A stretch of 35,298 nucleotides of DNA from a virus. The DNA lies in the IMG/VR virus record IMGVR_UViG_3300028780_000013, positions 1 through 35,298 of that record, one strand, 5' to 3'. The notes beneath the pieces were generated by a model. The model searched no databases. It was not told the DNA's origin and saw nothing but the letters and a program-made list of their open reading frames with translations. Below are positions 1 through 19,639 of this stretch, one piece after another. Both the position numbers and the translations under genes were made by a program. Every line of letters begins with the position of its first letter. Position 1 is the first letter of the stretch.

Positions 1-140
1 ACATACATCCTGAGGTACTGTTTCCTGAGCCTCCAGTGCCAGTAGGCGGCCCTGATGCCTATATTGCCGTACCAGAGGGCCAGAATTACCCAGCAGAGGC
101 AGGAAGAGGCGAATACGGGGTCACTAAACGAATGTGTCAT
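1..140 (-). CDS. Small membrane protein, cut by window edge
   Basis: The frame opens with ATG at 140, inside the end of the upstream gene (stop at 124), and runs off the left edge. A GAGG motif sits 7 bases before the ATG. The visible 46 residues start MTHSFSDPVF, followed by a hydrophobic stretch (about residues 10-31) and then a basic, aromatic tail (HWRLRKQYLRMY). This fits a single membrane segment with a positively charged cytoplasmic end. The family is not recognised and the C-terminus is unseen. Confidence 0.5.
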   Translation of the reverse strand, partial: MTHSFSDPVFASSCLCWVILALWYGNIGIRAAYWHWRLRKQYLRMY

Positions 141-456
141 TGAGGAACCTCACTTCCTCGTCGATAGCGTCCTGTCGATCTTCATAGGTGCCGGGGAGAA
201 TGGGACCACCGATGGGTGCAAGGTTGATGCGCCAGTCGCATGGCCACATCCGAGTGAACTCCGCTAGACTGGACTGACGGGAGCAGACCGAACGAAGACC
301 GTGAAACATCACGCGCAAGAGAGGGTTAGCCGGTTCTACGTGCGATGCACGCTTCACTACCGTCTCCGGTGTGATGAAGGGCTTACTGTGCTCATCGACG
401 AGAAACTTGATCTCGCCGTCTTCGTCTACTGTGATGGTCACGGTCTTGTCGGTCAT
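124..456 (-). CDS. Hypothetical protein with DUF2997-like N-terminus
   Basis: 110 residues from ATG at 456, one base after the stop of the upstream gene, which suggests coupled translation. The N-terminus (TVTITVDEDGEIKFLVDE) has the paired-strand pattern of DUF2997 proteins and resembles the start of the gene at 827-1009. The C-terminal part, with FTRMWPCDWRINL and then GGPILPGTY, resembles a common phage protein of unknown role. It may be a DUF2997-like domain fused to that phage domain. It sits downstream of the ATPase/Ycf35-like gene set. Function unknown. Confidence 0.75.
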   Translation of the reverse strand: MTDKTVTITVDEDGEIKFLVDEHSKPFITPETVVKRASHVEPANPLLRVMFHGLRSVCSRQSSLAEFTRMWPCDWRINLAPIGGPILPGTYEDRQDAIDEEVRFLNDTFV

Positions 457-457
457 C

Positions 458-775
458 TTATTTGCCCGCCTTCTTCGTCCGCGACTTCGAGCGACGGTGC
501 TGCTTCGCGGGCTTCTGGTTGGGCTTGCCGGGGTGCTTCTCGTGCCACAGCTTGCGGACAAGGGCCTCGACGGTTGCACGGTCAGCGGGGTCAAGCTCCA
601 TCGCACGCGGGTGATTGATTTCCTCCGCGATGGAGGCAAGGATGGCGGCCTGAAGCCGGGGCTTCTTGGCGGCGTTCTGAAGCTTCTTGACTTGGTTCGG
701 ATCAACCACCTGATCGATGGTTAGCTTGGGCAGGTATCCGATACGGCGGAGACGACGGGCGAGTGATACTGGCAT
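458..775 (-). CDS. Hypothetical basic protein
   Basis: 105 residues, starting MPVSLARRLRRIGYLPKL. The middle is helical, with charged and Leu/Ala-rich segments, and the last 25 residues are strongly basic (QKPAKQHRRSKSRTKKAGK). The basic tail suggests nucleic-acid or acidic-partner binding, but this is inference. Its stop is one base from the ATG of the next gene at 456, so the two are probably translated together. Confidence 0.7.
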   Translation of the reverse strand: MPVSLARRLRRIGYLPKLTIDQVVDPNQVKKLQNAAKKPRLQAAILASIAEEINHPRAMELDPADRATVEALVRKLWHEKHPGKPNQKPAKQHRRSKSRTKKAGK

Positions 776-826
776 GGTCTAGTCCTTTGCAGGTTAGGTT
801 GGTTCAGAGTGAGGTTGAAGTGTGCC

Positions 827-1009
827 TTACTTAGCGCACACTGTTGTGGTTGTCGTCGTCCGGTACTCAGGCTTTTTCTGCCGGTGAGTGACCTTAGAAC
901 CTTTGGTGAGGGTGTCCATCACTGCTGCACATCCTACACCCTTGAAGCCGTCGAGTTCAACACTAATCTCGCCGTTCTCATCGATTTCAATCGTGGCAAA
1001 CTTTGCCAT
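827..1009 (-). CDS. DUF2997-like small protein
   Basis: 60 residues with a clear AAGGAGG ribosome binding site. The sequence starts MAKFATIEIDENGEISVE, then has a conserved-looking GFKGVGCAAVMDTL segment. This matches the layout of DUF2997 proteins: two strands, then a G-x-G-C turn and a helix. In cyanobacteria DUF2997 genes are found next to Ycf35 (DUF1257) genes; here the neighbour at 1022-1477 is such a gene, 12 bases away. The Thr-rich basic tail (EYRTTTTTTVCAK) is unusual. Molecular function is unknown. Confidence 0.75.
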   Translation of the reverse strand: MAKFATIEIDENGEISVELDGFKGVGCAAVMDTLTKGSKVTHRQKKPEYRTTTTTTVCAK

Positions 1010-1021
1010 GTCGCGGCCTCC

Positions 1022-1477
1022 TTAGGCGATTGCGTACTTGTACTGGGTGACTTTCTTGCCGTTGCGCTCGACCTGCTTATTCACCACAAGCTTGTAGCCA
1101 GCTTTCTTGGCGTTGGCGAAGACGAACTGCTTCGAGTACTCCTGCTTCACACTCTTGAGCCAGCCTGCGTTGTGCCGGGTAGAGTCGAAGTCGGAGATGA
1201 TGGCAGAGTAGGTGCCGTCCGCATTACGGGTGAACCCGATGTCGTTTGACGAAGAGCCTACCTGCTTGCGGCGGATGATGATGTCGGCCTTCATCGCTTT
1301 GGCGGGGTTGGTGGTATGGCCTACGCCATCCAGTGTGCGGTAGTCCCCTTGGTAGCCGACGAGGGGCTGAGGATTGCCGATGTGGTCTTCCACCTCGGTG
1401 TACCCCATCTCGAACAACGCGGCCAGCAATACCTTGCCATCGTTGAAAGTTGTTGCGGCTGTTGCGTACTCACTCAT
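1022..1477 (-). CDS. Ycf35/DUF1257-like protein
   Basis: 151 residues. Features of the DUF1257 (Ycf35) family are visible: an N-terminal helix with LLAALFEMGYTEVEDH, then VGYQGDYR, a strand ADIIIRRKQ, the DIGFTRNADGTYSAII pair of strands, and a C-terminal half with EYSKQFVFANAKKAGYKLV. The known family is found in plastids, cyanobacteria and some phages; its biochemical role is not established. Here it lies between a DUF2997-like gene and, further upstream, a Ycf46-like ATPase, the usual association. A promoter at 1504-1532 is just upstream, with an AAGGAG site before the ATG. Confidence 0.85.
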   Translation of the reverse strand: MSEYATAATTFNDGKVLLAALFEMGYTEVEDHIGNPQPLVGYQGDYRTLDGVGHTTNPAKAMKADIIIRRKQVGSSSNDIGFTRNADGTYSAIISDFDSTRHNAGWLKSVKQEYSKQFVFANAKKAGYKLVVNKQVERNGKKVTQYKYAIA

Positions 1478-1503
1478 GCTGCTCTCCTTGGTAGTGCGTA
1501 TTC

Positions 1504-1532
1504 AGTACATCATACTGCGGGGTGCATGTCAA
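1504..1532 (-). promoter_or_regulatory. Sigma70-type promoter for the Ycf35-like unit
   Basis: On the minus strand a perfect TTGACA (-35) at 1527-1532 is followed after 17 bases by TGTACT (-10) at 1504-1509. The predicted start lies about 20 bases before the ATG at 1477. The -10 is a poor match, so strength is uncertain. Confidence 0.5.
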
Positions 1533-1565
1533 CGCCTAAAATGACATGCAACCCAACTAGTTAGC

Positions 1566-2027
1566 CTACACCTCGACCGTGACTTTCAGTGCCTTGCCGC
1601 CCACGCTTACACGCTTGCGGCCACCTAGTTTCTGCGCCTTGTCTGCTTCCTCTTCCGTGGGGTGGCCGTAGGCTTCTAGGTTGTTCCCACTGCCGTAGAT
1701 GTTGAAGTACACGTCCTTGGTCTCGACCTTCATGAACAGGTCACGAGAGTCCCACGTCCTATTTTCGTAGGCGTCAGCCCTCCCTTCGATAGTACGCTGG
1801 ATAAGGGTATTATAACCTCTATCCTCCAGAACTCCTGCCAAAGGAAACTTCCCGGCGTTCTTGAAGATCGTAAGCTGTGTGACTTCCTTACCCTCACCTG
1901 TGACCACCGGTTTACCGGCTAGTGCTGCTGTGAGGTCAAACGGCGTCATGCCTTCTGGCAATGGCCCGGATGATTGAGATGTAAAGCTCACGCTCTTGCT
2001 GATAGGATCGCTTATGTCTGGCTGCAT
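1566..2027 (-). CDS. Hypothetical phage protein
   Basis: 153 residues. After a Ser-rich leader it has MTPFDLTAALAGKPVVTGEG, VTQLTIFKNAGKFPLAGVLE and a C-terminal segment with RDLFMKVETKDVYFNIYG. A short FDL..AL.G.PVVT..GK.V domain of this kind is common in phage genomes and looks like a small beta-rich fold; no activity is known. It lies between the membrane protein at 2047-2253 and the Ycf35-like unit. Confidence 0.8.
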   Translation of the reverse strand: MQPDISDPISKSVSFTSQSSGPLPEGMTPFDLTAALAGKPVVTGEGKEVTQLTIFKNAGKFPLAGVLEDRGYNTLIQRTIEGRADAYENRTWDSRDLFMKVETKDVYFNIYGSGNNLEAYGHPTEEEADKAQKLGGRKRVSVGGKALKVTVEV

Positions 2028-2046
2028 GGTGTCCTCCTTGGACGGG

Positions 2047-2253
2047 TTAGAGATTCAGGCTGGTGATGGTTGAGTCGATGGCCTTTTGCTCACGGTTCTT
2101 ACGCCACGAGTTGAAACGTTGAAGGAACTCTGGGCCGCCACTAATAGCGTACCACAAGTAAAAGAACGTTATTATGGGACCGACAACGAAGTAGAAGAGA
2201 CCCCAGCCTATCGCCACGTGCATGAGGTCTCGTAGTGTGATGGCGTGGCCCAT
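2047..2253 (-). CDS. Small membrane protein
   Basis: 68 residues. A hydrophobic stretch at about residues 12-38 (VAIGWGLFYFVVGPIITFFY) predicts one long or two short membrane segments; the C-terminal tail is charged (RKNREQKAI). The ATG overlaps the stop of the ATPase gene in the arrangement TAATG, so it is probably translationally coupled to it. It may anchor or accompany the ATPase, but no family is recognised. Confidence 0.75.
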   Translation of the reverse strand: MGHAITLRDLMHVAIGWGLFYFVVGPIITFFYLWYAISGGPEFLQRFNSWRKNREQKAIDSTITSLNL

Positions 2254-3830
2254 TAGTCCCTGATCTTTCTACCTGAACCCGCGAAGACGGGGCCGGTGAT
2301 GTCGCTGTTATCCTTACGCGTGGTCTCATCGTGGTAGTAGGTGCCCACCTTGGATGCACTCAGATAGCGTCCAGATGCCTCTAGGCGCGTCTTCTCAAGT
2401 GTGGCGGCGTCAGAGATGGCTGACGGTACGATGTACGTTGCAGCCTTCGCCAGTGTCCAGTTGAGCATGTCTGCCTTCTTGCAGCAGTCACGAATCTCAG
2501 CGCCCGTCCAGTTCTCGCTCGGTGGGTTCGGTTCGTCGTTGACGAGTCCGTGGTTGCGGCGTTGGATGGCCCAGATTTCATCGCGCTCTGACGCATTCGG
2601 AGAGTCAAAGAAGAACTTGACGAGAGAGAAGCGGCGGCGAAGCTCAGGCGGTAGGTTGGCGATGCCGTTGCAGGTAGCGATGCAGAGCACGTTGCCACTG
2701 CTGATGGCGTCGATGGTCTTGGTCGCGGTGCGCAGGTTGTGGCCAGAGTTACCGACGTGCATGTCTTGCATGGCGGCGATGTCGAAGACGATGACGGGCT
2801 TGTTGTAGGTGGCTCCCAGACTCTTGGCCAGTTGCGACTTGGACACGCCGGGGATGCCGATGCTCAGCGCACCATTGACGCCCTTGTCTTCCATCCACGA
2901 GAGGATGATACCGTTCATTTCCGTCTTGGTGCCCGACGAGTCCGTACCGTTACCGGCCATCTGCTTCTCGATCTCGTCGATGAAGAGGATGACTTCAGGC
3001 GCGTTCTTGCCGGTCATGACGGCCCGGTAGAACTCTTTGGCACTCTCGATGCCTCCGATGTCATCCAGCGTCTCCTTGCCCTTGTAGACGGTCAGGCCGG
3101 GGGTAGCGTTGATGATCTGGCGCTTGCGCTCCCAGAGGTCGGTGATGCTGAGGGTGCCTTTACGGATGGACTCCTTCTCCTTGCCCGGTATCTTCTCAGT
3201 GGTCAGGCACATCGCGGTCGCCTGATCTGCACTGAAGGACGAGAGACCGATGAGCGCGTCGACTGCCGACTTCTCGATGTCGGTGGTCAGAGATGCCTCG
3301 GCGTTCGCGCTCTTGAACGTATTGCGTACGATCACCGCAAGCTCTTCACGTGTGGGCAGTGGTTCATCAAGCACAAGCACGTCCGTCTGAAGCTCGATGG
3401 GCAGAGTCGCGCCGGGTGTGCTGACGAGCACGAGCATGTTACCCACGTTCTTGTAGATGTCTCGCAGGTTCCACACGGCCTGTACGTTGGTGGGGTCACC
3501 CCAGAGCAGATGCGCGTTAGAGATAAACACGATCATGTCGCTGACGCCATCCGTCTCCAGAGCCTTCAGTGTCTCAGGCAACTGTACCGTCTCAGGTGTC
3601 TCAAGTCCGGCCTTCGCCATGAGTGTGGCGTATGCTTCCTTGCTGGCCTTGGTGTTGTTCATTGGCAGGAGACCGTGGACAGAATCCCAGATGAGCATAG
3701 GCGTGCTATCGAGGGTGCCGTTCAGTGCTGCACTGATATTGCGGGTGAGTCCCTTGGCATCGAACGTACGCATGTTGATGATGGGAGTGGAGACGCGGCG
3801 GGCGGCCTTGAACTGTTGGATGAAATCCAT
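2253..3830 (-). CDS. Ycf46-like AAA+ ATPase with rearranged core
   Basis: 525 residues. The N-terminal half (about 1-240) resembles the degenerate NTPase half of Ycf46: LIWDSVHGLLPMN near 46-58, DMIVFISNAHLLW near 98-110, VLVLDEPLPTREEL near 151-164. The C-terminal half begins LDDIGGIESAKEF (255-267). The Walker B strand VILFIDE (280-286) comes before the Walker A loop GIPGVSKS (325-332), which is followed by a beta-2 strand VIVFD, sensor 1 (CIATCNG, N388), an arginine-finger RRR (398-400) and a sensor 2 region GAEIR (443-447). In ordinary AAA+ proteins Walker A precedes Walker B, so the core appears permuted. The P-loop is also atypical, with Ser where the last Gly of GxxxxGKS is expected. 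Probably an ATP-driven remodelling enzyme acting with the Ycf35/DUF2997-like proteins downstream. Confidence 0.88.
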   Translation of the reverse strand: MDFIQQFKAARRVSTPIINMRTFDAKGLTRNISAALNGTLDSTPMLIWDSVHGLLPMNNTKASKEAYATLMAKAGLETPETVQLPETLKALETDGVSDMIVFISNAHLLWGDPTNVQAVWNLRDIYKNVGNMLVLVSTPGATLPIELQTDVLVLDEPLPTREELAVIVRNTFKSANAEASLTTDIEKSAVDALIGLSSFSADQATAMCLTTEKIPGKEKESIRKGTLSITDLWERKRQIINATPGLTVYKGKETLDDIGGIESAKEFYRAVMTGKNAPEVILFIDEIEKQMAGNGTDSSGTKTEMNGIILSWMEDKGVNGALSIGIPGVSKSQLAKSLGATYNKPVIVFDIAAMQDMHVGNSGHNLRTATKTIDAISSGNVLCIATCNGIANLPPELRRRFSLVKFFFDSPNASERDEIWAIQRRNHGLVNDEPNPPSENWTGAEIRDCCKKADMLNWTLAKAATYIVPSAISDAATLEKTRLEASGRYLSASKVGTYYHDETTRKDNSDITGPVFAGSGRKIRD

Positions 3831-3871
3831 AATGGGTGAGGCTCCTTTTCAGGTACGGTTGAGTTACTTTC

Positions 3872-4057
3872 CTAAGGATACAGAACGATCTCTTCGGTGT
3901 CAACAAAATAATCAGGCCCAGCTTCGGCCACATCTCGGAACTTTTGTTCCACCTCTTGAGGTGTAGAGCGTAACAGGCTTACGATCACGCGCTGTGCATC
4001 CAGCAGCTTATCAGTATACCCGTCACGCGCTACTGCCTCGGCCCACACGCTGCTCAT
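3872..4057 (-). CDS. Small hypothetical protein
   Basis: 61 residues, acidic, helical in the middle (TDKLLDAQRVIVSLLRST, EVEQKFRDVAEA). The ATG overlaps the stop of the upstream gene as ATGA, arguing that the start is right and that translation is coupled. Function not recognised. Confidence 0.65.
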   Translation of the reverse strand: MSSVWAEAVARDGYTDKLLDAQRVIVSLLRSTPQEVEQKFRDVAEAGPDYFVDTEEIVLYP

Positions 4058-4620
4058 GGTGCTGTGGTGTTTGGGTTTTCACCCTTGGGGAACCACCCGT
4101 TAGCACGAAGGTTGTAGGCTGTGATGTACTTCAGGCCCGTGCTGCCGTCCTTCTTGTGCAAACGCACGATGTACTCGCCCACCTCAGGTGCTCTCGATCT
4201 GCGCTGGTTCGCTGGGAGTATGCTGCTCTGAGTGACGGCCTCAAGCACGCCGGACTCTGACGGTGTTGCCAGTACCCACGTACGCGGTCCGTATACGCTG
4301 CGGTATACTTGGGCCGGGTCTTGCCCTAAGTACTTGCGCTGTGTCGTCCACCGCTGAAAGATTGTGCCCAGAGGTGCCGGTGCGCCTGCGCCCTCGATTG
4401 CGGCGGCCTCTTCAGCCTGTATACGTGCGACCATGGCCACGTTGACCTGCTCCCATAGGTGGTTGATCGTAGGCCCATAGATGCGCTCAAGCTCTGCGTC
4501 TATGATGCGCCGGGACACATCCATTAGCTTGGTGCGTACCTTGTCACGGGCCTGCATTGCTGCCCACTTCATCGTCTCGCGCTGTGCCTCTGCGCGTCTA
4601 AGCTCTTCATTCCGTGGCAT
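4054..4620 (-). CDS. Hypothetical protein
   Basis: 188 residues from ATG at 4620, chosen because GAGGAG precedes it; a longer frame extends upstream over the previous gene. Residues 1-80 are charged and probably helical (EELRRAEAQRETMKWAA). A C-terminal part with TWVLATPSES, VGEYIVRLHKKDGST and YITAYNLRANGWFP looks like a small beta-rich fold. No catalytic motif is visible. Overlaps its neighbours by a few bases on both sides. Confidence 0.75.
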   Translation of the reverse strand: MPRNEELRRAEAQRETMKWAAMQARDKVRTKLMDVSRRIIDAELERIYGPTINHLWEQVNVAMVARIQAEEAAAIEGAGAPAPLGTIFQRWTTQRKYLGQDPAQVYRSVYGPRTWVLATPSESGVLEAVTQSSILPANQRRSRAPEVGEYIVRLHKKDGSTGLKYITAYNLRANGWFPKGENPNTTAP

Positions 4621-4621
4621 A

Positions 4622-5002
4622 TTAGCTCCTCGCTGGTATTCCCTTGCGTGAAAGTGTAATCTCCGCTGTTGCGTATCCACCGCTCATATTGCCCGGGGGT
4701 GGATACCCTACTTTGGTGATGTTGTAAATGACTTCGCCGTCGTCCATAGTGCGCTCCCATAGCTGGTAGCCGTGCAGTAGTGCCCGCGTGTCGCTAACTC
4801 GATTCCATAGGCCCGGTACTAGCTGATAGCCTAAGAACGTGGCCAGCATCCTGAGGTACTGCTCTGCATCTGTGACGGTGCCCAGCTCTGTCGCGGGCTG
4901 CGTCGGAGCGTGCAGGGACATCTCGCCGTCATTGAAGATGGCCAGTTGCGCCTGACCGTTCGTTACTACAAATTCATGCGCTGTGCTTCTGACAGTCCCC
5001 AC
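4622..5002 (-). CDS. Hypothetical protein, GTG start
   Basis: 126 residues. The start is GTG at 5002, overlapping the stop of the upstream gene as TAGTG; no ATG is available before residue 28. The first 30 residues form strands (EFVVTNGQAQLAIFNDGEMSL), then a helix with DAEQYLRMLATFLGYQLV. No motif of known activity. One base separates its stop from the ATG of the next gene. Confidence 0.7.
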   Translation of the reverse strand: MGTVRSTAHEFVVTNGQAQLAIFNDGEMSLHAPTQPATELGTVTDAEQYLRMLATFLGYQLVPGLWNRVSDTRALLHGYQLWERTMDDGEVIYNITKVGYPPPGNMSGGYATAEITLSRKGIPARS

Positions 5003-5283
5003 TATATCAGCTCACTTTCTACCGGGGTGCGTGTGACGAGCACGGCCTTCTGGTTGTTGAGTGCTTTGATGAACTCCGCGATGTTGCGCACGTACCCGAT
5101 GCGCGTGTTGTGATACGGGCCTTCTGGTACCAGTATCTCGATCACCAGACTATTCTCGCTGGTGCCATCCCAGACGCCCGACGCGCTGAAGATGGTGTAG
5201 GCGCTGAAGTAGTGACCCACCTCGACCTTGATCCGGTCAAGGTTCAAGTCTTCCGTCCATATTCTTACTAGTGTGCCGTTCAT
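5002..5283 (-). CDS. Hypothetical protein
   Basis: 93 residues, beginning MNGTLVRIWTEDLNLDRIK and mostly strand-forming, with a C-terminal helix (NIAEFIKALNNQK). An AAGGAG site precedes the ATG. No family recognised. First gene of a three- to four-gene overlapping set running leftward. Confidence 0.7.
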   Translation of the reverse strand: MNGTLVRIWTEDLNLDRIKVEVGHYFSAYTIFSASGVWDGTSENSLVIEILVPEGPYHNTRIGYVRNIAEFIKALNNQKAVLVTRTPVESELI

Positions 5284-5357
5284 ACCGCTCCTTTGTGATG
5301 CTGGGATAAGCTTACATTATGACGGCCCCTGTTGTCAAGGGCCGCCAGCATCTAAGT

Positions 5358-5669
5358 TTATACCACTGTTTCGTGTGACTGATTCACTGCCACGCCCGCT
5401 ATTTCGTAGCGTTCGATGCGGCACTCTTCGCCATCGCTCAGGTACATGCCAAACACTGCGTTACCTAGTGCGCTGGGATTGCACCCGAACCCGCCAGCGG
5501 CAAGGAACCGTCTATCTAGCATCTGCTGATATGCCGGTGCCAATGCTGCCTTGCGCACCACCACTACTTTGCCCGCGTAGTGTTCTGAACTGCTGCCGGG
5601 GACTACCGCGTTTATTTCGGCCTGCTCTGGTGTATCCTCTGTCACTGTTTGCTTCTTGGTACGTGCCAT
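5358..5669 (-). CDS. Hypothetical protein
   Basis: 103 residues. Basic N-terminus (MARTKKQTV), acidic stretch, then VVVVRKAALAPAYQQMLDRR, GGFGCNP and a C-terminal strand pair CRIERYEIAGVAVNQ. No motif of known function. Ends 74 bases before the next leftward gene start. Confidence 0.65.
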   Translation of the reverse strand: MARTKKQTVTEDTPEQAEINAVVPGSSSEHYAGKVVVVRKAALAPAYQQMLDRRFLAAGGFGCNPSALGNAVFGMYLSDGEECRIERYEIAGVAVNQSHETVV

Positions 5670-5727
5670 ACTGGTCTCGATTCCGCGCTGTGTGCGCTGG
5701 TTATGGTGCGCTGAGGGTACCGCACCC

Positions 5728-6153
5728 CTATACTAGCGGGTGCGCCTTGACGAAGTCATGCTGCTCCTTCTCTTCGCCGTAGCTGCTGTAGTCGTCTTCC
5801 TCCCTGAACGTCTCCTTCTCCGCTTCCTCCTGAGTGAACTCGTTACGGTGGAGATACGAACGGCCAAACTCTGCCAGTGCCACGGCATAGGCGGCCTTTG
5901 CCTCAGTGCATTTGACGCACGCGGCGATTACTTCGCTGCTATCGTAACGGTGCTCTTCACACTCTTCAGTCGTGTTGTAATCGAACTGCGATTGAAACGC
6001 ATCGCACCCGCTACAGGAACCGTACGAACCGTGAACCCAATACGCTTTACCCTCAAAGCGTACAGATGCCCACCAGTCCCCCTGATAGCTGCCAAACGTC
6101 TCGTACTCCACAACTTCCGCTCCTGCTGCTTCCATCGCTGACTTGTAACCCAT
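5728..6153 (-). CDS. Hypothetical phage protein with Cys motifs
   Basis: 141 residues. The centre has GSYQGDWWASVRF, then VHGSYGSCSGCDAFQ, and later CVKC. A G-D-(W/F) strand followed by a C-x-x-C-(D/A)F motif is a recurring pattern in small phage proteins of unknown role; compare the product of 17124-17483, which has a similar strand-then-CSCYG layout. The Cys pairs could bind a metal. The C-terminal third is strongly acidic. One of the 19-base leader repeats lies just upstream (6164-6182). Confidence 0.75.
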   Translation of the reverse strand: MGYKSAMEAAGAEVVEYETFGSYQGDWWASVRFEGKAYWVHGSYGSCSGCDAFQSQFDYNTTEECEEHRYDSSEVIAACVKCTEAKAAYAVALAEFGRSYLHRNEFTQEEAEKETFREEDDYSSYGEEKEQHDFVKAHPLV

Positions 6154-6163
6154 ACATCCTCCT

Positions 6164-6182
6164 TTGCGCTGGTGTCGCGCTG
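6164..6182 (-). repeat. 19-base leader repeat, copy 1 of 3
   Basis: TTGCGCTGGTGTCGCGCTG on the plus strand, occurring identically at 6164-6182, 6446-6464 and 6704-6722. Read on the coding strand it ends just before the GGAG ribosome binding site of the following gene in each case. Confidence 0.9.
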
Positions 6183-6233
6183 ATACTCCTGATTATACCA
6201 CACTGCAAAGCTGCCCGGTGGGTTACCCCTAGG

Positions 6234-6428
6234 CTAAAGGGTATAGAGGAACCTGGGTACCGTGCGGGCAGCATTCCACTTGTTGATAAGCTGGTGTGCC
6301 TCAAGTTGTGCCATCCCACCTAACAGAGATGGGAATAGGCCCGCCTGTAGATAATGGTCTTCGCTGAATGCCACGATTGACACGCGGCCTGTCTGTAGAT
6401 TCTGCCGTTTGAAGGTCTTATACCGCAT
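6234..6428 (-). CDS. Small hypothetical protein
   Basis: 64 residues (starts MRYKTFKRQNLQTGRV) with an AAGGAG site 9 bases before the ATG. Strands first, then a helix (MAQLEAHQLINKWN). Possibly a small phage accessory protein; no family recognised. Confidence 0.6.
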   Translation of the reverse strand: MRYKTFKRQNLQTGRVSIVAFSEDHYLQAGLFPSLLGGMAQLEAHQLINKWNAARTVPRFLYTL

Positions 6429-6445
6429 CTGTAAAGCTCCTTTTG

Positions 6446-6464
6446 TTGCGCTGGTGTCGCGCTG
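6446..6464 (-). repeat. 19-base leader repeat, copy 2 of 3
   Basis: Identical to 6164-6182. It begins directly after the stop codon (6465-6467) of the upstream gene and ends at the ribosome binding site for the gene starting at 6428. Confidence 0.9.
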
Positions 6465-6689
6465 TTAGTTGCACGTTGATTGTAACACTTCGCTACCGTC
6501 CGCACGTTCGCAGAGGTACGGAGTGCAAAGATATTGTTTCTTAGCTGCTATCCCTAGCAGCTTAGCGCCTTTGGTTTGCGCCTCAAACATGGTACTTGCG
6601 TAGACTTCGCATCTACCCTTTGGGGATGTAACGATATACCCACAAAGGCCCGCATCCAAAGGCCCGCGTATTGCTTTGATATCCAACAT
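6465..6689 (-). CDS. Small hypothetical protein
   Basis: 74 residues from ATG at 6689, preceded by AAGGAG; the frame is open upstream but lacks a ribosome binding site there. It starts MLDIKAIRGPLDAGLCG and carries four Cys, two in LCTPYLCERADG. Function not recognised. Confidence 0.65.
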   Translation of the reverse strand: MLDIKAIRGPLDAGLCGYIVTSPKGRCEVYASTMFEAQTKGAKLLGIAAKKQYLCTPYLCERADGSEVLQSTCN

Positions 6690-6703
6690 GGTAACACTCT
6701 CCT

Positions 6704-6722
6704 TTGCGCTGGTGTCGCGCTG
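6704..6722 (-). repeat. 19-base leader repeat, copy 3 of 3
   Basis: Identical to 6164-6182, placed directly before the ribosome binding site of the gene starting at 6689. Confidence 0.9.
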
Positions 6723-6744
6723 GTAGTTGCCGTTATCGGCAGCT

Positions 6745-6825
6745 TTACCATCTCCTTGTGACGTACGCAATACAGCCAACAAATACGGCCACGATAACGA
6801 AGTCTATCCACTGAATCGGACTCAT
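6745..6825 (-). CDS. 26-residue membrane peptide
   Basis: ATG at 6825 with a GGAGAATA ribosome binding site lying in the end of the upstream gene (stop at 6827). The product starts MSPIQWIDFVIVAVFVG and ends YVTRRW: one short membrane segment with a basic end. The good ribosome binding site and spacing support translation. Function unknown. Confidence 0.5.
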   Translation of the reverse strand: MSPIQWIDFVIVAVFVGCIAYVTRRW

Positions 6826-6826
6826 A

Positions 6827-7468
6827 TTATTCTCCTTTGCCACGCACTACAATCCAACAAATAGCCTGTAACTCCGCTGGTTCGAATCCCAACTTTGCAG
6901 CTACATTCTGGTACGCCTTTTCAAGCGTATCGTATGCGTAACCCGGACGCGTAGCAGCTTGCACAAGTCGCGCTGTTTCCTCTGCTATTTGTTCGTCTGT
7001 TGCGCCTTTGGGTAATCGGGCCTTGCATCCTGCTGCACGTGCGGCCCAAACGTCACAAGTGACGCGCTGTAAGTCTCCGCATAGGTTGGCATAGAATCGT
7101 GTAACCTTCGGACCTGAGACGCGCTGTAAACTATCCCCATTAGCGATATCCCACGCCTTGTCTATGTTTCGATTTAGGCCCGCCATCACGGGGACAATGC
7201 GCGAACCAGAGTCAAAGGCCCGCGCAATCTTGCGTACTCCTATCAAGTTTTCTTGCCACGTGCAACGTGGAGATAATACCGCGCATATAGCAGCGGCCCG
7301 TTCCATCCCCCAAAGGCTAACGTACTGCGACAATTGCGCTTTTGCATAGGGATACCACGCCTTACCCTCTACAATCTGCGATGCGTTCGCACGGGCAAAG
7401 GTGGCCAGTATATGCCGTTCATACTTTTGTTGCAGCTTGAGATACTTGAGGTGCGTTTTAGATGCCAT
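6827..7468 (-). CDS. Conserved-looking phage protein, possible DNA-binding enzyme
   Basis: 213 residues from ATG at 7468, which overlaps the stop of the upstream zinc-finger gene as TGATG; this settles the start. Features: an N-terminal helix, AWYPYAKAQL, a segment CAVLSPRCTWQENLIGVRK, then SGPKVTRFYANLCGDLQ, VTCDVWAARAAG and a C-terminal FEPAELQAICWIVVRGKG. The order (helices, G-P-K-V-x-x-F-Y, strand with a conserved Asp followed by WAARAAG) resembles a widespread phage family and is loosely reminiscent of helix-hairpin-helix DNA glycosylases, where an Asp follows the hairpin. That functional link is inference. Confidence 0.8.
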   Translation of the reverse strand: MASKTHLKYLKLQQKYERHILATFARANASQIVEGKAWYPYAKAQLSQYVSLWGMERAAAICAVLSPRCTWQENLIGVRKIARAFDSGSRIVPVMAGLNRNIDKAWDIANGDSLQRVSGPKVTRFYANLCGDLQRVTCDVWAARAAGCKARLPKGATDEQIAEETARLVQAATRPGYAYDTLEKAYQNVAAKLGFEPAELQAICWIVVRGKGE

Positions 7469-7629
7469 CACACACCAACCTTTTTTACGAGTCCACTTCC
7501 GCCACACTTAGAGCACGTGTTACTAGACTCCTTCAAACTACTACCGTACCCGTTACAGTGCGGGCACTGGCTGTATCCATACTTTTGAGGGTCTAGCATA
7601 ATTTTTATGTCTAACATAGAATCATGCAT
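7468..7629 (-). CDS. Small DnaJ-type zinc-finger protein
   Basis: 53 residues, starting MHDSMLDIKIM with GGAGA 6-10 bases upstream. It contains CPHCNGYG (22-29) and CSKCGGSG (39-46), the paired CxxCxGxG motif of the DnaJ cysteine-rich zinc-binding domain, in a protein with nothing else. Such mini-DnaJ fingers occur in many phages and may bind proteins or nucleic acid. The stop overlaps the next ATG. Confidence 0.75.
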   Translation of the reverse strand: MHDSMLDIKIMLDPQKYGYSQCPHCNGYGSSLKESSNTCSKCGGSGLVKKVGV

Positions 7630-7658
7630 TGTTGCGTCTCCTTTAGCCTATATGCTCC

Positions 7659-7719
7659 TTTGAGGGTACCGGATGAATGATACCCTCAAAGCAACATGCG
7701 GGCCTTTGTAGCGGCCCGC
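7659..7719. repeat. Two consecutive stem-loops between genes
   Basis: TTTGAGGGTA at 7659-7668 pairs with TACCCTCAAA at 7681-7690 (10 base pairs, 12-base loop). GCGGGCC at 7698-7704 pairs with GGCCCGC at 7713-7719 (7 base pairs, 8-base loop). They fill the gap between the stop at 7727 and the next ATG at 7629. Neither has a T-run, so they may be attenuator or processing structures rather than plain terminators. Confidence 0.6.
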
Positions 7720-7726
7720 TATGCCG

Positions 7727-8248
7727 TTAGTAGCGTACGACTAGGTTAGCAAGGTTAGGCGCAAACTCAGGCAAGGCCAACAATTCGGGGTAATTCTCCA
7801 CCAGATACCCCACAACAAAGGCCCTTTGGTCTGCCGGAAAATCATTGTGCTGAATGAAAAACTCACCTTGCCCGATTACTTCAGCCACAATCAACGCAAT
7901 CCACCGCGCTTTGTCATACAAAGACGGCCCGTCTAACGCGAGTACCTGAGTAGCTTGCAAGGATGCGGCCCGTTTCTCACCCTCAAACGTAAAATCCGCA
8001 TTGGCTAGAATGTGGCAAGCATCATGCCATGCACGAAATTGCCAATTTGTAACGGGTGAACCAAAGATGGTTTTATCAGAGTGATTTACATTGATTTTGA
8101 TGCGGCCCGTTGCCTCAAAGTCGCTCTTCATCTCTGCGAAGTCTGCGTAATCAGACGCAGTATAGGAGATGGCCTTAGGTGCGAGTAAAGAAACGATGTA
8201 GTCGAAGGTTGGATCAATTCCGCCAATTGCTACGCCTGTATCGAACAT
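7727..8248 (-). CDS. Hypothetical protein
   Basis: 173 residues with a GGAG site before ATG 8248. Mainly helical. A histidine-rich segment WQFRAWHDACHILAN near residue 70-84 could form part of a metal site. The C-terminal part (WIALIVAEVIGQGEFFIQH, FVVGYLVENYPELLALPEF) is hydrophobic helical but not clearly transmembrane. Driven by the promoter at 8285-8313. Confidence 0.75.
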   Translation of the reverse strand: MFDTGVAIGGIDPTFDYIVSLLAPKAISYTASDYADFAEMKSDFEATGRIKINVNHSDKTIFGSPVTNWQFRAWHDACHILANADFTFEGEKRAASLQATQVLALDGPSLYDKARWIALIVAEVIGQGEFFIQHNDFPADQRAFVVGYLVENYPELLALPEFAPNLANLVVRY

Positions 8249-8284
8249 TGTGTTACTCCTTTGGGTGAAATACGGTACTCGTTT

Positions 8285-8313
8285 AGACTACGTGAATAGG
8301 AAAAACGTGTCAA
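8285..8313 (-). promoter_or_regulatory. Sigma70-type promoter
   Basis: Minus strand TTGACA at 8308-8313, 17-base spacer, TAGTCT at 8285-8290. The -35 lies directly after the stop codon of the upstream gene (8315). It shares GCTTGACACGTTT with the promoter at 8993-9022. Confidence 0.6.
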
Positions 8314-8314
8314 G

Positions 8315-8959
8315 CTACCTTTTGCGATAGATGAAAATTGTTACCATACGAGTTACTTTCGTTGACGTGTACGTGTCATAATCCGCCGCTACCGTCCAAC
8401 CATCCAAGGGAAGATTGCGCGTAATGGCCTTGATTTTAGCGCGTATTTGTCTATCAGTTGCGGCCTTAGACTCACCCACATACACGCGATTGTAAATTAA
8501 ATTCATGGCCAACATCGTGCTCTTTTTTCCATTGCGCAGGAAACTCGCAAGGTTCGAAAGAATCACAGTATCACGCGCAACTAACTCCATCGTGTTAGTC
8601 GTGTCAAGGTAGAAAAGGCCCTTGTGGAATGGTGCGAGTTTGGCAAACGTGGCGAATCCATCGCCCTTATAAAACAGAGTACCGGGGTGATGCTTATTCA
8701 CGGCCCGTTCGATGTTTTGCCAGTTTACAGCAACAAAGCGATTGCCGAAATAGTGTGACCATTGCGCAATATCATTGGACGGGTGAGTTTTGCCGTTATC
8801 TACGCACGATGCAAGCGTAATGCATACATCGTCTGTATTGCGGGCCGCCAAACGTTGACGTGTTTTGTCGATTACTAGATTGCGGTACATCGATAGGACG
8901 CGGGCACGATGTTCGAATTTCACCAGATTGTTATAACCGTGATTCTTATCAATTCGCAT
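8315..8959 (-). CDS. Hypothetical protein
   Basis: 214 residues, basic. Starts MRIDKNHGYNNLVKFEHRAR, with mixed helix/strand: FVAVNWQNIERAV, GLFYLDTTNTMELVARD, RVYVGESKAATDRQIRAKI and a C-terminal strand TRMVTIFIYRKR. The middle strand-Asp-Thr-Thr pattern is a little like nucleotide-modifying enzymes but no defining motif is present. Preceded by GGAG and by a promoter at 8993-9022. Confidence 0.7.
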   Translation of the reverse strand: MRIDKNHGYNNLVKFEHRARVLSMYRNLVIDKTRQRLAARNTDDVCITLASCVDNGKTHPSNDIAQWSHYFGNRFVAVNWQNIERAVNKHHPGTLFYKGDGFATFAKLAPFHKGLFYLDTTNTMELVARDTVILSNLASFLRNGKKSTMLAMNLIYNRVYVGESKAATDRQIRAKIKAITRNLPLDGWTVAADYDTYTSTKVTRMVTIFIYRKR

Positions 8960-8992
8960 GTTGCACTCCTATATGAATTTGACTACTTAGAT

Positions 8993-9022
8993 AGTCTAAT
9001 CGAAACGAGAGAAACGTGTCAA
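8993..9022 (-). promoter_or_regulatory. Sigma70-type promoter
   Basis: Minus strand TTGACA at 9017-9022, 18-base spacer, TAGACT at 8993-8998. It overlaps the last codons of the upstream gene. The leader after it contains AGTAGTCAAATTCATA, nearly repeated in the leader at 10030-10052. Confidence 0.6.
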
Positions 9023-9243
9023 GCTTTTTTGTCAGTTGCACGTGAACCGATGAAGTTAGACTCAGGGCACGCGGCCCGCCGTCTCTCGTTCATCGCGTCC
9101 ACAAAGGCCCGTGATGCATCTATCTGAGGTGCAAGCGTATCAGGTACGGGCCTAGGGTTAGGCGCATCATTGAAATACCGCACGATTGACGCAAGGATAA
9201 AAGCGAAGTTGGTGAAAATCACAAGGCCCGTAACGGTATGCAT
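9019..9243 (-). CDS. Small membrane protein
   Basis: 74 residues from ATG at 9243; a GTG at 9255 is an alternative adding four residues. Starts MHTVTGLVIFTNFAFILASI, one predicted membrane segment, then a Pro-rich linker (NDAPNPRPVPD) and an arginine-rich helix. It lies immediately after the stop of the previous gene (9248). Could be a small envelope-associated phage protein; no family recognised. Confidence 0.6.
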   Translation of the reverse strand: MHTVTGLVIFTNFAFILASIVRYFNDAPNPRPVPDTLAPQIDASRAFVDAMNERRRAACPESNFIGSRATDKKA

Positions 9244-9247
9244 TGGA

Positions 9248-9415
9248 CTATTCACCCACGTAAACTAGTTCGTTTGCTGAAGTAATAGGGAGAATCGGCC
9301 CAACCTTGCCCGCCGATTGCATGATTGATAGGCCCGCCTTTTCAAGCAATCGGCCATTGGGTGAGATGCGGAAATAATCGCCTGTGCGGAGAGATGCGAA
9401 AGGTACTTGAGTCAT
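9248..9415 (-). CDS. 55-residue hypothetical protein
   Basis: ATG at 9415 preceded by the leader AAGGAGCTTACGCA, which is identical in front of the genes starting at 9573 and 10024. Product starts MTQVPFASLRTGDYFRISP and ends ANELVYVGE, with the look of a small beta-barrel (PFASLRTGDYFRI, then GRLLEKAG). Similar 50-60-residue phage proteins are common. Function unknown. Confidence 0.65.
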   Translation of the reverse strand: MTQVPFASLRTGDYFRISPNGRLLEKAGLSIMQSAGKVGPILPITSANELVYVGE

Positions 9416-9438
9416 TGCGTAAGCTCCTTTATCTAGGG

Positions 9439-9573
9439 TTAGTAACGTTCAATCGAAACAACATGGTTATCGTCCATAAGGTCAGACGCGATGCGGTTGG
9501 CAACGGCGAGAGAATCAGCCCAATACTCATGCAACTCTTCGCTATACCAGTAGTGAAATTCAACCTTATACAT
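9439..9573 (-). CDS. 44-residue hypothetical protein
   Basis: ATG at 9573 with the AAGGAGCTTACGCA leader. The product begins MYKVEFHYWYSEELHEYW and continues into a helix ADSLAVANRIASDLM and a strand NHVVSIERY, a compact beta-alpha-beta arrangement. Function unknown. Confidence 0.65.
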   Translation of the reverse strand: MYKVEFHYWYSEELHEYWADSLAVANRIASDLMDDNHVVSIERY

Positions 9574-9649
9574 TGCGTAAGCTCCTTGTGAAGTTTGATT
9601 GCAGAGACAGAATAGCACGGGGGACTGTGGAAAACATCCCCCATTCGGG

Positions 9650-10024
9650 TTACTTCTCTTTTTTGCCGTATACCGCATCTAACAGACAAGTTTGCGCCTT
9701 GTCTATGTAATCGCGGGCCTTGTTTGCACTAACCCATCCCGCTGTTTCAGCGTCGCACGCGCTATTAGGCGCATTTAGGATATCCCCCCATATCGATGTT
9801 AGTTCATCATTGGCAACGGTTAGGGGATTCTCAGGGATACGTGTATCAACGTACTCCTTACGGTATGACTCCGCCTCTAAGGTTGTCCCAAAGTCGTGGC
9901 CAACCTGAAACGGCTTATCTTGTTTGATGGCCTTGCGAATCCCGCGATTTAGTTCTCTTTTGTTGCGTACGGGATACGTTGTGCCGATACCGGGGGAGTG
10001 AAAAACTGTAATCGAATAGGCCAT
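9650..10024 (-). CDS. Hypothetical protein
   Basis: 124 residues, starting MAYSITVFHSPGIGTTYPV. N-terminal strands, then basic helix (RELNRGIRKAIKQDK), and a C-terminal helical region (AETAGWVSANKARDYIDKAQ). The AAGGAGCTTACGCA leader precedes its ATG. First gene leftward of the non-coding stretch, with a possible promoter at 10058-10085. Confidence 0.7.
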   Translation of the reverse strand: MAYSITVFHSPGIGTTYPVRNKRELNRGIRKAIKQDKPFQVGHDFGTTLEAESYRKEYVDTRIPENPLTVANDELTSIWGDILNAPNSACDAETAGWVSANKARDYIDKAQTCLLDAVYGKKEK

Positions 10025-10057
10025 TGCGTAAGCTCCTTATGAATTGACTACTCGATA

Positions 10058-10085
10058 AGCCTATCATGAGACGGCCCGCGTGCAA
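10058..10085 (-). promoter_or_regulatory. Possible sigma70-type promoter
   Basis: Minus strand TTGCAC at 10080-10085, 16-base spacer, TAGGCT at 10058-10063, followed by AGTAGTCAATTCATAAGGAG. The downstream leader matches the one after the 8993-9022 promoter, which supports it although both boxes are imperfect. Confidence 0.4.
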
Positions 10086-10649
10086 CATCTATTTTTAGAT
10101 TTGTTTATCCCACGTTTGGGTGAGCATCTGAGATTTAGCGCGTATCAATATATAGAGCAAAATCGTGCGAATGCCTAGCAATTACAAGGCCAAACGAGTT
10201 TTCCTACCACATTTGAAAACTGTGGAAAACGCATTAGACGGCCTACACGCGGCCCGCGTTTCGTCAAGCTAGGGTAAGACGTTCGATTTTTCCGATAGCG
10301 TGGCGGGCCTGCTAGGTGGCAAGGATTCAATTTCACTTTCGCCTTTTGTTCGCCCTAAAAGAGCATAAAAAGCGAAGATGCGGCCCGTAACTCCTTTAGA
10401 ATTGCATACGCACCTATTAGCGTCTCAATTCATCTTTTTTCATCTCAAATGCAGACTTTGGCCCGTCACGTGCTGCCAGCAAGTCGAGTGCCAAACACCG
10501 GGCAGTTGTCAAGTTTTATGTCAGAAAAATGCGGCGATATCCTAACGTCCAATTGCGTACTGTATACGCCTATAGACCAAAGGCCCGCCGCATTGCGAAG
10601 CTTGAGACGCTATAGAGCATAGGCGAATGACAATCGCTAATCTTCATTT

Positions 10650-10717
10650 GTCTATCTCCAGATGAACGGCCCATCATTGTCTGTCTATCCCTGAATGAAC
10701 AAAGCCTATCGTCTATC
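10650..10717 (+). repeat. Iteron-like direct repeats
   Basis: GTCTATC occurs at 10650-10656, 10683-10689 and 10711-10717; the first two are part of a longer similarity (GTCTATC, then an imperfect 5-base stretch, then ATGAAC). A fourth GTCTATC is near 10847. Spacing is about 33 and 28 bases. Confidence 0.5.
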
Positions 10718-11030
10718 CTGATACACGTATCCACAATCTTTCACCTATGCGGTATCAGTTGCCAATATGATATTAGGCCCATCATGCGACCAAGGAGACA
10801 TAGAGAGATGAGACCAACACAAGGAGACAACCAAGGCCACCTAAGGCCCGTCTATCTCCATAGGCCAATGCCTCTAATCCCCTATAAGACAATCAAAGCC
10901 ATAGCGCCTTTGTATTGCTTGCCTATGCTCTTCTATCGCGTCTCTAAGGCGTATCAAATACGCAAGCTTTTGTATCAGTTAGGCGATAGGCCACGCTATT
11001 CCGCCACTCGCACGCACGGCCCGCCAGACA

Positions 11031-11042
11031 CGTATTTATACG
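11031..11042. repeat. 12-base palindrome, copy 1 of 3
   Basis: CGTATTTATACG, the reverse complement of CGTATAAATACG found at 11634-11645 and 11699-11710. Copies 1 and 3 are both followed by TTTGT. These could be protein-binding operators at the edges of the non-coding stretch. Confidence 0.6.
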
Positions 11043-11524
11043 TTTGTCTGCAATTCCCCATAATGCAGACTGCATAGATAAGACTAATTATTTCAACAAC
11101 TTACGATACCCTGATCGTGTAAGTCGTTTGGTATGTTAGGGGTATGGCCAGTTGTTCATGTGATGCGTGTCAGTGTAGCCGTAAGTCGTTGATAACACAG
11201 GGGATAGGGTGTCAAACCAACCCTCTCGACAGGCCATGCCGGGGAGTCCGCCCGGTACCGGCACGCCAGCTCAAGCTGGTGCGGCCAGAGCCACTAGCAA
11301 ACCCTTGTCAGTACAAGGGCCTACCTCCTGCCACCTCCCCAGCCGACCTACAGCAACACCCCTCAACCAATCGGTTGAATAGGTACCCTTATAGGGGGTC
11401 ATATCCGGCTACAGGGTGGTAGGGAGGTATGAGACGCTAATAGGATGCCTCGTCCTGAGGCTGGCATGGGGGTACACGGGGCTGATGAGTATAGGGAGGT
11501 AGGATGGTACCATTTCGGATAGCA

Positions 11525-11590
11525 AAAAGCACCTAGGGCATCCTGACACAGTGTCCCCAGAAAGGGGGTGTCTCAAGAACCTAGGTGCTT
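11525..11590 (-). terminator. Leftward intrinsic terminator with elaborate stem
   Basis: On the minus strand AAGCACCTAGG pairs with CCTAGGTGCTT (11 base pairs; plus-strand arms 11527-11537 and 11580-11590), and the second arm runs into a T-run (CTTTTTGC). Inside the loop a further stem (GACAC/GTGTC and CCCC/GGGG) is visible. It lies about 140 bases after the stop of the last leftward gene (11727). Confidence 0.7.
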
Positions 11591-11633
11591 CGCTTGGGGC
11601 ATATCGCCCAGAACGCCGTAGTCTAGCCACGGG

Positions 11634-11645
11634 CGTATAAATACG
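11634..11645. repeat. 12-base palindrome, copy 2 of 3
   Basis: CGTATAAATACG, between the leftward terminator and the stop at 11727. Confidence 0.6.
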
Positions 11646-11698
11646 TCTTACAGCTCTCCTCCGCCCAGAGGACAGCAGGCGTATTCAATCTTGGTCAG

Positions 11699-11710
11699 CG
11701 TATAAATACG
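11699..11710. repeat. 12-base palindrome, copy 3 of 3
   Basis: CGTATAAATACG followed by TTTGT, 17 bases from the stop codon of the gene at 11727-11936. Confidence 0.6.
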
Positions 11711-11726
11711 TTTGTACGTTTCTGTT

Positions 11727-11936
11727 CTACTTCTCCCAGAGGTCGAAGGTCTCGTTCAGTCTCTTGGCGATGCTCTGCTTGGTGGCTACCACGGCTGACT
11801 GAGCCACTCGTTGTGGGCCGATAATCTCCAACATTTCAAGGGTTGCCGGGGGTATGGGTCCGGGTACTTCCAGCTCGGACTCTACGACGGCCAGTGCGAT
11901 CTCTCGGGCCTTAGCTACGGTGATCTCTCTGCTCAT
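11727..11936 (-). CDS. Small helical hypothetical protein
   Basis: 69 residues, MSREITVAKAREIALAVV..., almost wholly helical with a Pro-rich turn (EVPGPIPPATLEML). AAGGAG precedes the ATG. Its start overlaps the stop of the upstream gene (ATGA). Last gene of a leftward run that ends at the terminator 11525-11590. Function unknown. Confidence 0.7.
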   Translation of the reverse strand: MSREITVAKAREIALAVVESELEVPGPIPPATLEMLEIIGPQRVAQSAVVATKQSIAKRLNETFDLWEK

Positions 11937-12127
11937 AGTTCTCCTTTCGGTAGGGCTTTAGAAAAGGCTTCCGGCCAGTCGTAGCGTTCCCTCATCTGGT
12001 CGGCGGTCGGGGTGATCCTGAAGGCGGATTGGAAGAGGGGTGACTTGGCGGTCGGTCGCGGCGGCCAGTCGTTCAGGGTCTCGGCTATGTCAGGAGTGAG
12101 GCACTTACTGGGGCACTTGGCACTCAT
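11933..12127 (-). CDS. Small hypothetical protein
   Basis: 64 residues beginning MSAKCPSKCLTPDIAETLN, with an early CxxxC. Pro-rich middle. ATGA overlaps with both neighbours indicate a translationally coupled set. No family recognised. Confidence 0.65.
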   Translation of the reverse strand: MSAKCPSKCLTPDIAETLNDWPPRPTAKSPLFQSAFRITPTADQMRERYDWPEAFSKALPKGEL

Positions 12128-12480
12128 AACCCGGCACCGTCCGGCTGCTCCTTGGAGTTGTATCGATCAATCTCTGCCTCTGGTAGACCAATGCCCCTGT
12201 ACTTGTTCTCCCGGCTGAAGGGTGGCTTCTTGCCGCCGTAGGGGTTGGTGTACATATAAGGCCACTTGGCTGCAACCTTAGTCCTGCCGGGGATCGGATC
12301 GGACCATGATAGTGCTACGGTGAATCCTAGGTCAGACAGGAGCTTGTACCGGTCCATGGCAGTGAACAGGCCTACGTCCATAGCCTTGGTGCTGCGTGCC
12401 CACGTAGGAAATTTTCGGTGGCCTGCCCAGTACCATACGGTGAACCGTTGGCCCAGTACCTTTGCTCCTGTCTGAGTCAT
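12124..12480 (-). CDS. Hypothetical protein
   Basis: 118 residues from ATG at 12480, with GAGGAG upstream; the longer open frame upstream lies over the previous gene. Begins MTQTGAKVLGQRFTVWYWAGH; later MDRYKLLSDLGFTVALSWSDP and a Pro/Lys/Tyr-rich C-terminus. Mixed alpha/beta, no activity recognised. Confidence 0.7.
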   Translation of the reverse strand: MTQTGAKVLGQRFTVWYWAGHRKFPTWARSTKAMDVGLFTAMDRYKLLSDLGFTVALSWSDPIPGRTKVAAKWPYMYTNPYGGKKPPFSRENKYRGIGLPEAEIDRYNSKEQPDGAGL

Positions 12481-12481
12481 C

Positions 12482-12703: not shown

Positions 12704-12704
12704 G

Positions 12705-13181: not shown

Positions 13182-13227
13182 TACTTCTGCTGATGTACGC
13201 AAGGTGATCTCTTTTCTGGCCGGTGGC

Positions 13228-13584: not shown

Positions 13585-13599
13585 TTCTGAATAGTACTC

Positions 13600-14170: not shown

Positions 14171-14171
14171 A

Positions 14172-14450: not shown

Positions 14451-14479
14451 CATAGCTCCTTGTTCACGTTCGTGAATGG

Positions 14480-14674: not shown

Positions 14675-14675
14675 G

Positions 14676-14945: not shown

Positions 14946-14994
14946 AAGACTCCTAGGTGAAAATTTTGGGTTGTGCTGCATGGACGCTTAGTAC

Positions 14995-15023: not shown

Positions 15024-15025
15024 GC

Positions 15026-15226: not shown

Positions 15227-15266
15227 CTGCTTCTCCTTGATTCTCTTCTCGCGTGCTAGACTAAGC

Positions 15267-19576: not shown

Positions 19577-19639
19577 ACATCTCCTTTATAAACCCTCGCC
19601 AGTGACAACCCCAATCACCCGCCGACCGACCCCATGAAA

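Follow-up and report, generated by a model that had tools for sequence, protein, structure and literature searches.

A phage ATPase of Ycf46-like descent with Walker B ahead of Walker A: a probable block permutation of the AAA+ core

The window, by which we mean the whole stretch of DNA analysed, is 35,298 bases from an IMG/VR virus record and carries a gene for an ATPase, while its other genes are of the tailed-phage set (terminase, portal and family A DNA polymerase). An earlier sequence-only reading had placed the ATPase gene at 2253-3830; these coordinates were confirmed but the strand needed correction to minus. The features of the gene and of its neighbours are as follows:

2253-3830, minus strand: gene of the putatively permuted Ycf46-like AAA+ ATPase, 525 residues (Pfam AAA, 1.2e-10; AF2 pLDDT 91.6)
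3045-3830, minus strand: N-terminal part, residues 1-262, a D1-like domain without a P-loop plus linker (normal-order N-domain HMM, 4.7e-31; whole-chain structural matches to p97/Cdc48 D1-D2)
2877-3005, minus strand: the block that appears to have moved, residues 276-318, strand b3 with Walker B VILFIDE (2973-2993) and helix a3 (normal-order Walker-B HMM, 1.1e-11)
2697-2876, minus strand: residues 319-378, b1, P-loop GIPGVSKS (2835-2858), a1, b2 and a2 (normal-order Walker-A HMM, 7.7e-17)
2421-2696, minus strand: residues 379-470, b4 with sensor 1 (N388, 2667-2669), arginine finger R400 (2631-2633), b5 and the start of the lid (normal-order sensor-1 HMM, 1.2e-14)
1022-1477, minus strand: DUF1257 gene, presumably Ycf35-like, downstream of the ATPase (Pfam PF06868, 5.6e-12)
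827-1009, minus strand: DUF2997 gene, downstream of the ATPase (Pfam PF11211, 1.4e-6)
124-705, minus strand: open reading frame with the small conserved neighbour family SP95 (family HMM 3.2e-29 on window ORF 127-720; no Pfam match above cut-off)

Elsewhere in the window there is a permuted tmRNA gene at 19730-19985 on the minus strand (Rfam RF04321, full-length model, 71.1 bits against a gathering threshold of 47, E 6.3e-12), for which ARAGORN reports a tmRNA* at 19524-20018 on the same strand with the odd tag GKADEWIFMGSVGG. An Rfam tRNA match over 121 bases at 24987-25107 on the plus strand is absent from the ARAGORN list and perhaps has a long arm or an intron, and a DUF7178 protein (Pfam, 1.2e-33) is encoded at 6827-7507 on the minus strand.

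AAA+ cores normally run in the order Walker A, b2, Walker B, sensor 1. In the translation of the window gene VILFIDE lies at residues 280-286 and GIPGVSKS at 325-332, as the sequence-only reading had them, and ATCN (N388) and then RRRF (R400) follow the P-loop in the order claimed. HMMs were built for each of the three segments (Walker A, Walker B, sensor 1) from seven normal-order A4 proteins only; they matched the window protein in the order Walker B, Walker A, sensor 1 with the E-values listed above (each for one sequence); a second, weak sensor-1 match (0.0076) lies within its N domain. The same order, with every segment at E < 0.01 for one sequence, was found in 58 of 58 dereplicated permuted rows, window included (median E 7.5e-20 for Walker A, 1.2e-12 for Walker B and 3.5e-16 for sensor 1; worst E 7e-4, 1.1e-5 and 7.4e-8 respectively), so that Walker B comes first throughout and the claim that it precedes Walker A is borne out for the window protein and the whole set. 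It should be noted that there are two separate 58-row sets, alignment A3 and these dereplicated tree rows, which have 52 loci in common and both contain the window protein (P0001, L009). A conventional Walker A ahead of residue 280, on which that claim could have foundered, was sought with two patterns and is absent from the window protein: neither [GA]xxxxGK[ST] nor a looser variant that allows G, A or S ahead of the Lys occurs upstream of its Walker B. Among the 58 rows the first pattern matches one (L039) and the looser pattern has four matches in four rows, three of them in a GG-rich linker-helix stretch; all were judged to be chance, as was the one candidate for a second Walker B after Walker A (L020, 3.4 bits over 12 residues). 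The motif order of the Ycf46-like phage and plasmid ATPases is not that of the window protein, which derives from their family without being a canonical member of it.

The order might in principle be an artefact of misassembly or a frameshift, or a chance acidic motif might have been taken for Walker B. The gene is, however, a single open frame without stops, the protein is present at 100% identity in two IMG/VR contigs and at 99% in a third (all three of them longer contigs), and the cultured phage Tunturi_3 encodes a homologue at 51-52% identity, annotated plainly as ATPase, with identical motif order. As these near-identical contigs and Tunturi_3 carry the same order an assembly error is excluded, and with independent HMMs matching every segment significantly and the order repeated in 120 distinct proteins, an artefact of any kind has next to no chance of being the explanation. 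To Pfam the permuted proteins look like ordinary AAA members (PF00004 gives 42.3 bits on the window protein, against a curated cut-off of 21.2, and E ≤ 0.01 in 58 of 58 A3 rows). The antiphage ATPase IteA is the sole NCBIfam match listed, and identity with it was rejected because the score (5.2e-05, 22.6 bits) is far under the cut-off of 510; phmmer with the window protein alone against the PDB gave a best E of only 0.54.

The sequence-only reading had suggested a search among metagenomic phage proteins, and there the order proved common to a large set. The first 81 loci classified comprised 75 permuted, four normal (the named phages L002-L005) and two that were left unassigned (L064 with a frame break, L081 cut), and after a scan for normal-order proteins the 192 loci held 84 permuted, 106 normal and five unassigned ORFs. 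Among 89 later loci, 80 from a viral scan (the best 80 of 159) and nine from genomes, 88 were permuted, many of them on contigs retrieved before; the ninth genome locus (L309) is cut before sensor 1, with Walker B still preceding Walker A. Counted together there are at least 172 permuted ORFs; compared over their final 300 residues, they represent at least 120 distinct proteins, which come from metagenomes, MAGs and a single cultured phage. Genomes were sampled from three phyla; a match at E ≤ 1e-60 turned up in 3 of the 396 genomes of the first, 2 of the 282 of the second and 9 of the 295 of the third (L309 among the nine), and in an overlapping sample of the first phylum 3 of 297 genomes gave E below 1e-190; in these samples the best three to five candidates per genome were scored and the centring genome was included where drawn. 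One MAG has four permuted copies. A first cellular scan with A1 yielded no relatives in 87 candidate stretches, and a scan with A2 yielded 17 loci. With the permuted query L018 the sole match at E ≤ 1e-20 among 50,697 phage records was Tunturi_3, and with the permuted query L076 the only plasmid records at that level were three from Manganitrophus, of which the one classified (L083) has normal order. A permuted copy with a broken frame in an Acidobacteria MAG (L072, P-loop GPPDAAKS) is perhaps decaying.

For phylogeny the N domain, Walker A block, Walker B block and the part from sensor 1 to the lid were aligned separately and then joined or re-ordered, so that homology of the segments is assumed in the trees. 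A quick tree in which 64 permuted rows stand with 89 normal ones, 153 in all, needs one change of order, and in it L083 adjoins the permuted clade. The careful tree was made from 58 permuted rows, 18 sister rows and, as outgroup, 38 other normal-order rows (114 altogether); omitted from it were 4-mer near-duplicates, broken or cut genes, ORFs whose N domain scored weakly, and L059, L072, L165, L178 and L183. In this tree support is 100/100 for the permuted clade, 98/94 for the sister and 100/100 for both together, and the stem of the permuted clade is long (1.0 changes per column). Since the permuted rows form one clade beside a normal-order Ycf46-like sister from phages and plasmids, the permuted order has one origin; neither tree requires more. 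The sister, the L083/L193 group from Candidatus Manganitrophus, Thermovibrio plasmids and IMG/VR phages, has a homologous N domain (the normal-order N-domain HMM matches 58 of 58 permuted rows, median E 2.8e-32) and the neighbours DUF1257, DUF2997 and DUF3150-like in common with the permuted clade, but in it b1-a1-b2-a2 precede b3-a3, whereas in the permuted clade the blocks are reversed. The loci retrieved with the Manganitrophus protein (L193-L219) have normal order in 26 of 27 loci, the gene of L216 being split into two ORFs. Unlike the window protein, the homologous Ycf46-like ATPases of Mycobacterium phage Firecracker (gp100), Rhizobium phages L338C and RHph_I4 and Streptococcus satellite phage Javan368 also have normal order (4 of 4).

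Comparison with this normal-order, same-neighbour sister supports the earlier proposal of a Ycf46-like core whose strand-3 unit was shifted to a place ahead of strand 1. When the sequences are read by eye, the helix ends LKIVNSPYSRG, AVVDAFSPC and TWLNDHKSR of normal-order L193 lead into the strands VLLLGVPG, ILFIDE and VFVVATC, and in the window protein the same helices lead into other strands: VMTGKNAPE into VILFIDE, SWMEDKGVNG into ALSIGIPG and KTIDAISSGN into VLCIATC. A change from (b1-a1-b2-a2)(b3-a3) to (b3-a3)(b1-a1-b2-a2), with every cut just before a strand, is exactly the rearrangement that this comparison shows. Against the CDC48-type chain 6chs_H the family profile likewise aligns as three pieces that abut but are shuffled, query 298-350, 253-297 and 357-436 corresponding to chain 255-307, 309-353 and 354-439 (31.1, 6.0 and 15.4 bits, the Walker-B piece being weak alone). 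Changed-order pieces occur in both AAA domains of this chain, again with a weak Walker-B piece (6.0 and 8.6 bits); on chain 7wub_C the Walker-B piece is matched in just one of two domains. Duplication intermediates, recognisable by a single ORF in which Walker A or Walker B is matched twice at more than 12 bits, were absent from L001-L192, L193-L219 and L221-L309, so that any route proposed for the rearrangement is conjectural.

The sequence-only reading depended on residues 280-286 being the Walker B strand. AF2 run on A3 (pLDDT 91.6, pTM 0.86) makes 280-284 a confident strand, in the series H262-273, E280-284, H301-316, E319-325, H331-341, E346-349, H361-377, E381-387 and E404-408. The sister control L193, modelled on A5 with 24 rows (pLDDT 83.7, pTM 0.69), has the same set of elements in normal order (H233-242, E250-255, H261-272, E277-279, H289-306, E309-313, H331-347, E352-358 and E376-380). 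Both models match p97/Cdc48 D1-D2 along the whole chain, and the window model has a predicted AAA+ fold, superposing on p97 D2 (3cf0_A) with Z 16.4 and rmsd 2.6 over 203 residues. Seven single-domain PDB chains were listed for both models, and on each of them the permuted model covers 26-40 residues fewer than the sister (203 against 243 on 3cf0_A, 214/249 on 6bmf_B, 200/226 on 6g2v, 201/232 on 4d82_B, 213/247 on 6oo2_C, 212/247 on 6ap1_B and 216/248 on 3d8b_A), with Z 16-17 versus 22-23, the two models also differing in length and confidence. This shortfall is near the size of the moved unit (43 residues) and agrees with a fold that may otherwise be unchanged; on two-domain p97/Cdc48 chains it is smaller and varied (416 versus 442 on 7lmz_C, 415 versus 431 on 9yrc_A). 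Foldseek whole-chain fits are loose (TMq 0.33-0.54 among the 50 matches listed), and the three best structural matches in BFVD are phage proteins named ycf46 (TMq 0.61, 0.68 and 0.58, loose fits at 9-13 A), a likeness to the Ycf46 family of cyanobacteria, plastids and phages, from which the window protein would differ in motif order.

A confident monomer model is compatible with exchange between identical subunits, and b3-a3 now directly follows the N-domain linker, so one might suppose that the moved unit completes the sheet of the neighbouring subunit and that the ATP site is assembled from two chains in a new way. The joints are, however, short: 0-2 residues separate the Walker B and Walker A profiles in 58 of 58 permuted rows, and 0-3 residues separate the Walker A and sensor-1 profiles in 57 of 58. 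Such a segment swap is in our estimation quite improbable, and folding within a single chain is the simpler reading because the joints are short. The exceptional row (L063, IMGVR_UViG_3300031772_000003) has an intein-like insert of about 160 residues exactly at sensor 1, which begins CLTGDT and ends HN before C; inteins favour conserved sites.

The P-loop GxxGx[GAS]K[ST] is present in 58 of 58 permuted rows, as are the sensor-1 Asn and the arginine-finger Arg (nine of them read by eye where the regular expression missed), and the acidic pair of Walker B is DE in 57 and EE in one. Throughout the 58 rows of A3 there is no variation at E286, K331, N388 or R400. The Ser that had been noted in place of the usual last Gly of the P-loop is indeed there in the window protein but is not a feature of the family, in which the residue before the Lys is G in 25 rows, A in 25 and S in 8. 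All 18 sister rows and the 24 rows of A5 have Gly here, so that among these sets the residue is relaxed only in the permuted clade; A or S in 33 of 58 permuted rows versus G in all sister rows suggests that ATP turnover may be weakened in the permuted clade. Carried further, the same replacement and the long stem branch of the clade could mean that the permuted domain binds nucleotide but is dead for hydrolysis, the permutation and the altered P-loop both marking loss of ATPase activity. We consider this unlikely, as the Walker B Glu, sensor-1 Asn, arginine-finger Arg and P-loop Lys are all kept, GxxGxGK[ST] is intact in 25 of 58 rows and RavA-type proteins also have Ala before the P-loop Lys.

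The setting of the gene bears on what the protein does. On a contig with an identical ATPase (L010) a DUF3150-like gene follows; this label is tentative, as L076 passes the Pfam cut-off (2.8e-6), L018 matches weakly (0.034) and L046, L053, L310 and L010 have no match. Around the 58 permuted loci the neighbours are DUF3150-like (53), DUF1257 (48), DUF2997 (34), SP95 (22) and radical-SAM with Fer4_12 (9), around the 18 sister loci 12, 17, 17, 5 and 0 respectively, and around the 38 other normal-order loci 4, 11, 10, 1 and 6, all counted on dereplicated loci with unequal lengths of DNA around each gene and with some weak DUF1257 matches. DUF1257 was not seen at 10 of the 58 permuted loci within the flanking DNA at hand, and without dereplication it is counted at 70 of 84, repeated contigs and weak matches included. 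The neighbours DUF1257 and DUF2997 best mark the permuted-plus-sister group. That both groups have these neighbours in common argues for one and the same job in the permuted protein and its sister. Radical-SAM/Fer4_12 genes (L025, 5256-5921; L311, 3225-3797) lie beside both permuted and normal-order ATPases. A 4.7-Mb contig (L310, positions 447-16444) whose source belongs to the same phylum as the Nitrospira MAG G004 carries permuted ATPase, DUF1257 and DUF3150-like genes amid beta clamp, primase-like, helicase-like, ribonucleotide reductase and transposase genes. This is perhaps a replicon that has integrated, and the setting hints at a replication-linked role on mobile elements.

The reading that we favour, with a probability of roughly 80%, is that of a phage ATPase of Ycf46-like descent in which b3-a3, bearing Walker B, was transposed in front of b1. 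The order b1-a1-b2-a2, b3-a3, b4-b5-lid would have become b3-a3, b1-a1-b2-a2, b4-b5-lid in a single event, in the ancestor of a large clade of phages and mobile elements, probably through a tandem duplication within the gene and subsequent trimming. The five strands most likely still form the usual 5-1-4-3-2 sheet, and Walker A, Walker B, sensor 1 and the arginine finger of the neighbour would meet in space as they do in a normal AAA+ ring. The AAA fold and the two-domain layout are common to the window protein and to classic AAA ATPases such as p97/Cdc48 and Vps4, but these have normal order, whereas in the window protein the P-loop is missing from the first domain and the second domain is the permuted one. 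A degenerate N domain of D1 type joined to an active permuted domain would resemble a p97/Cdc48 subunit with the second ring alone active. The protein is probably an ATP-driven ring that remodels proteins or DNA-protein complexes, perhaps with the DUF1257, DUF2997 and DUF3150-like proteins encoded alongside as its partners; we hold the odds of such an ATP-driven remodelling role with the gene neighbours to be about even.

Natural alteration of motif order has a precedent in another P-loop class, the circularly permuted GTPases RsgA/YjeQ and RbgA/YlqF, in which the order is G4-G5-G1-G2-G3 for the RsgA type. These are likewise P-loop NTPases, but with other motifs and cut points and with the whole domain permuted, whereas in the window clade an inner block is swapped. 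No G4-G5-G1-G2-G3 GTPase profile is among the Pfam matches listed for the window protein or for A3.

A search of an open literature library, whose coverage leaves out most subscription papers and preprints, found no description of a permuted AAA+ core or an altered Walker order. In PMC7824862 and PMC10853773 'permuted' refers to methylases, in PMC538276 and PMC7617512 'circular permutation' occurs in reference titles only, and PMC10119929 concerns engineered P-loop prototypes; the main text of the paper on the Tunturi isolate (PMC11924767) has no occurrence of ATPase, AAA or Walker. It is, we believe, highly likely that this is a naturally block-permuted AAA+ core undescribed before, in which one old internal transposition of Walker B would have given rise to a large and still functional clade that keeps its ancestral neighbours.

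Motif order is the basis of annotation, classification and mutational design across the AAA+ superfamily, and routine annotation conceals rearrangements of this kind (ordinary AAA in Pfam, simply ATPase for the Tunturi_3 copy). If the reading is true, the chain order of an AAA+ protein can be rewired without loss of the machine, and the order of its parts is less fixed than thought. The clade and its normal-order sister with the same neighbours would then constitute a natural experiment on rewiring of the P-loop fold, in which folding, allostery and ring mechanics could be compared between cousins.
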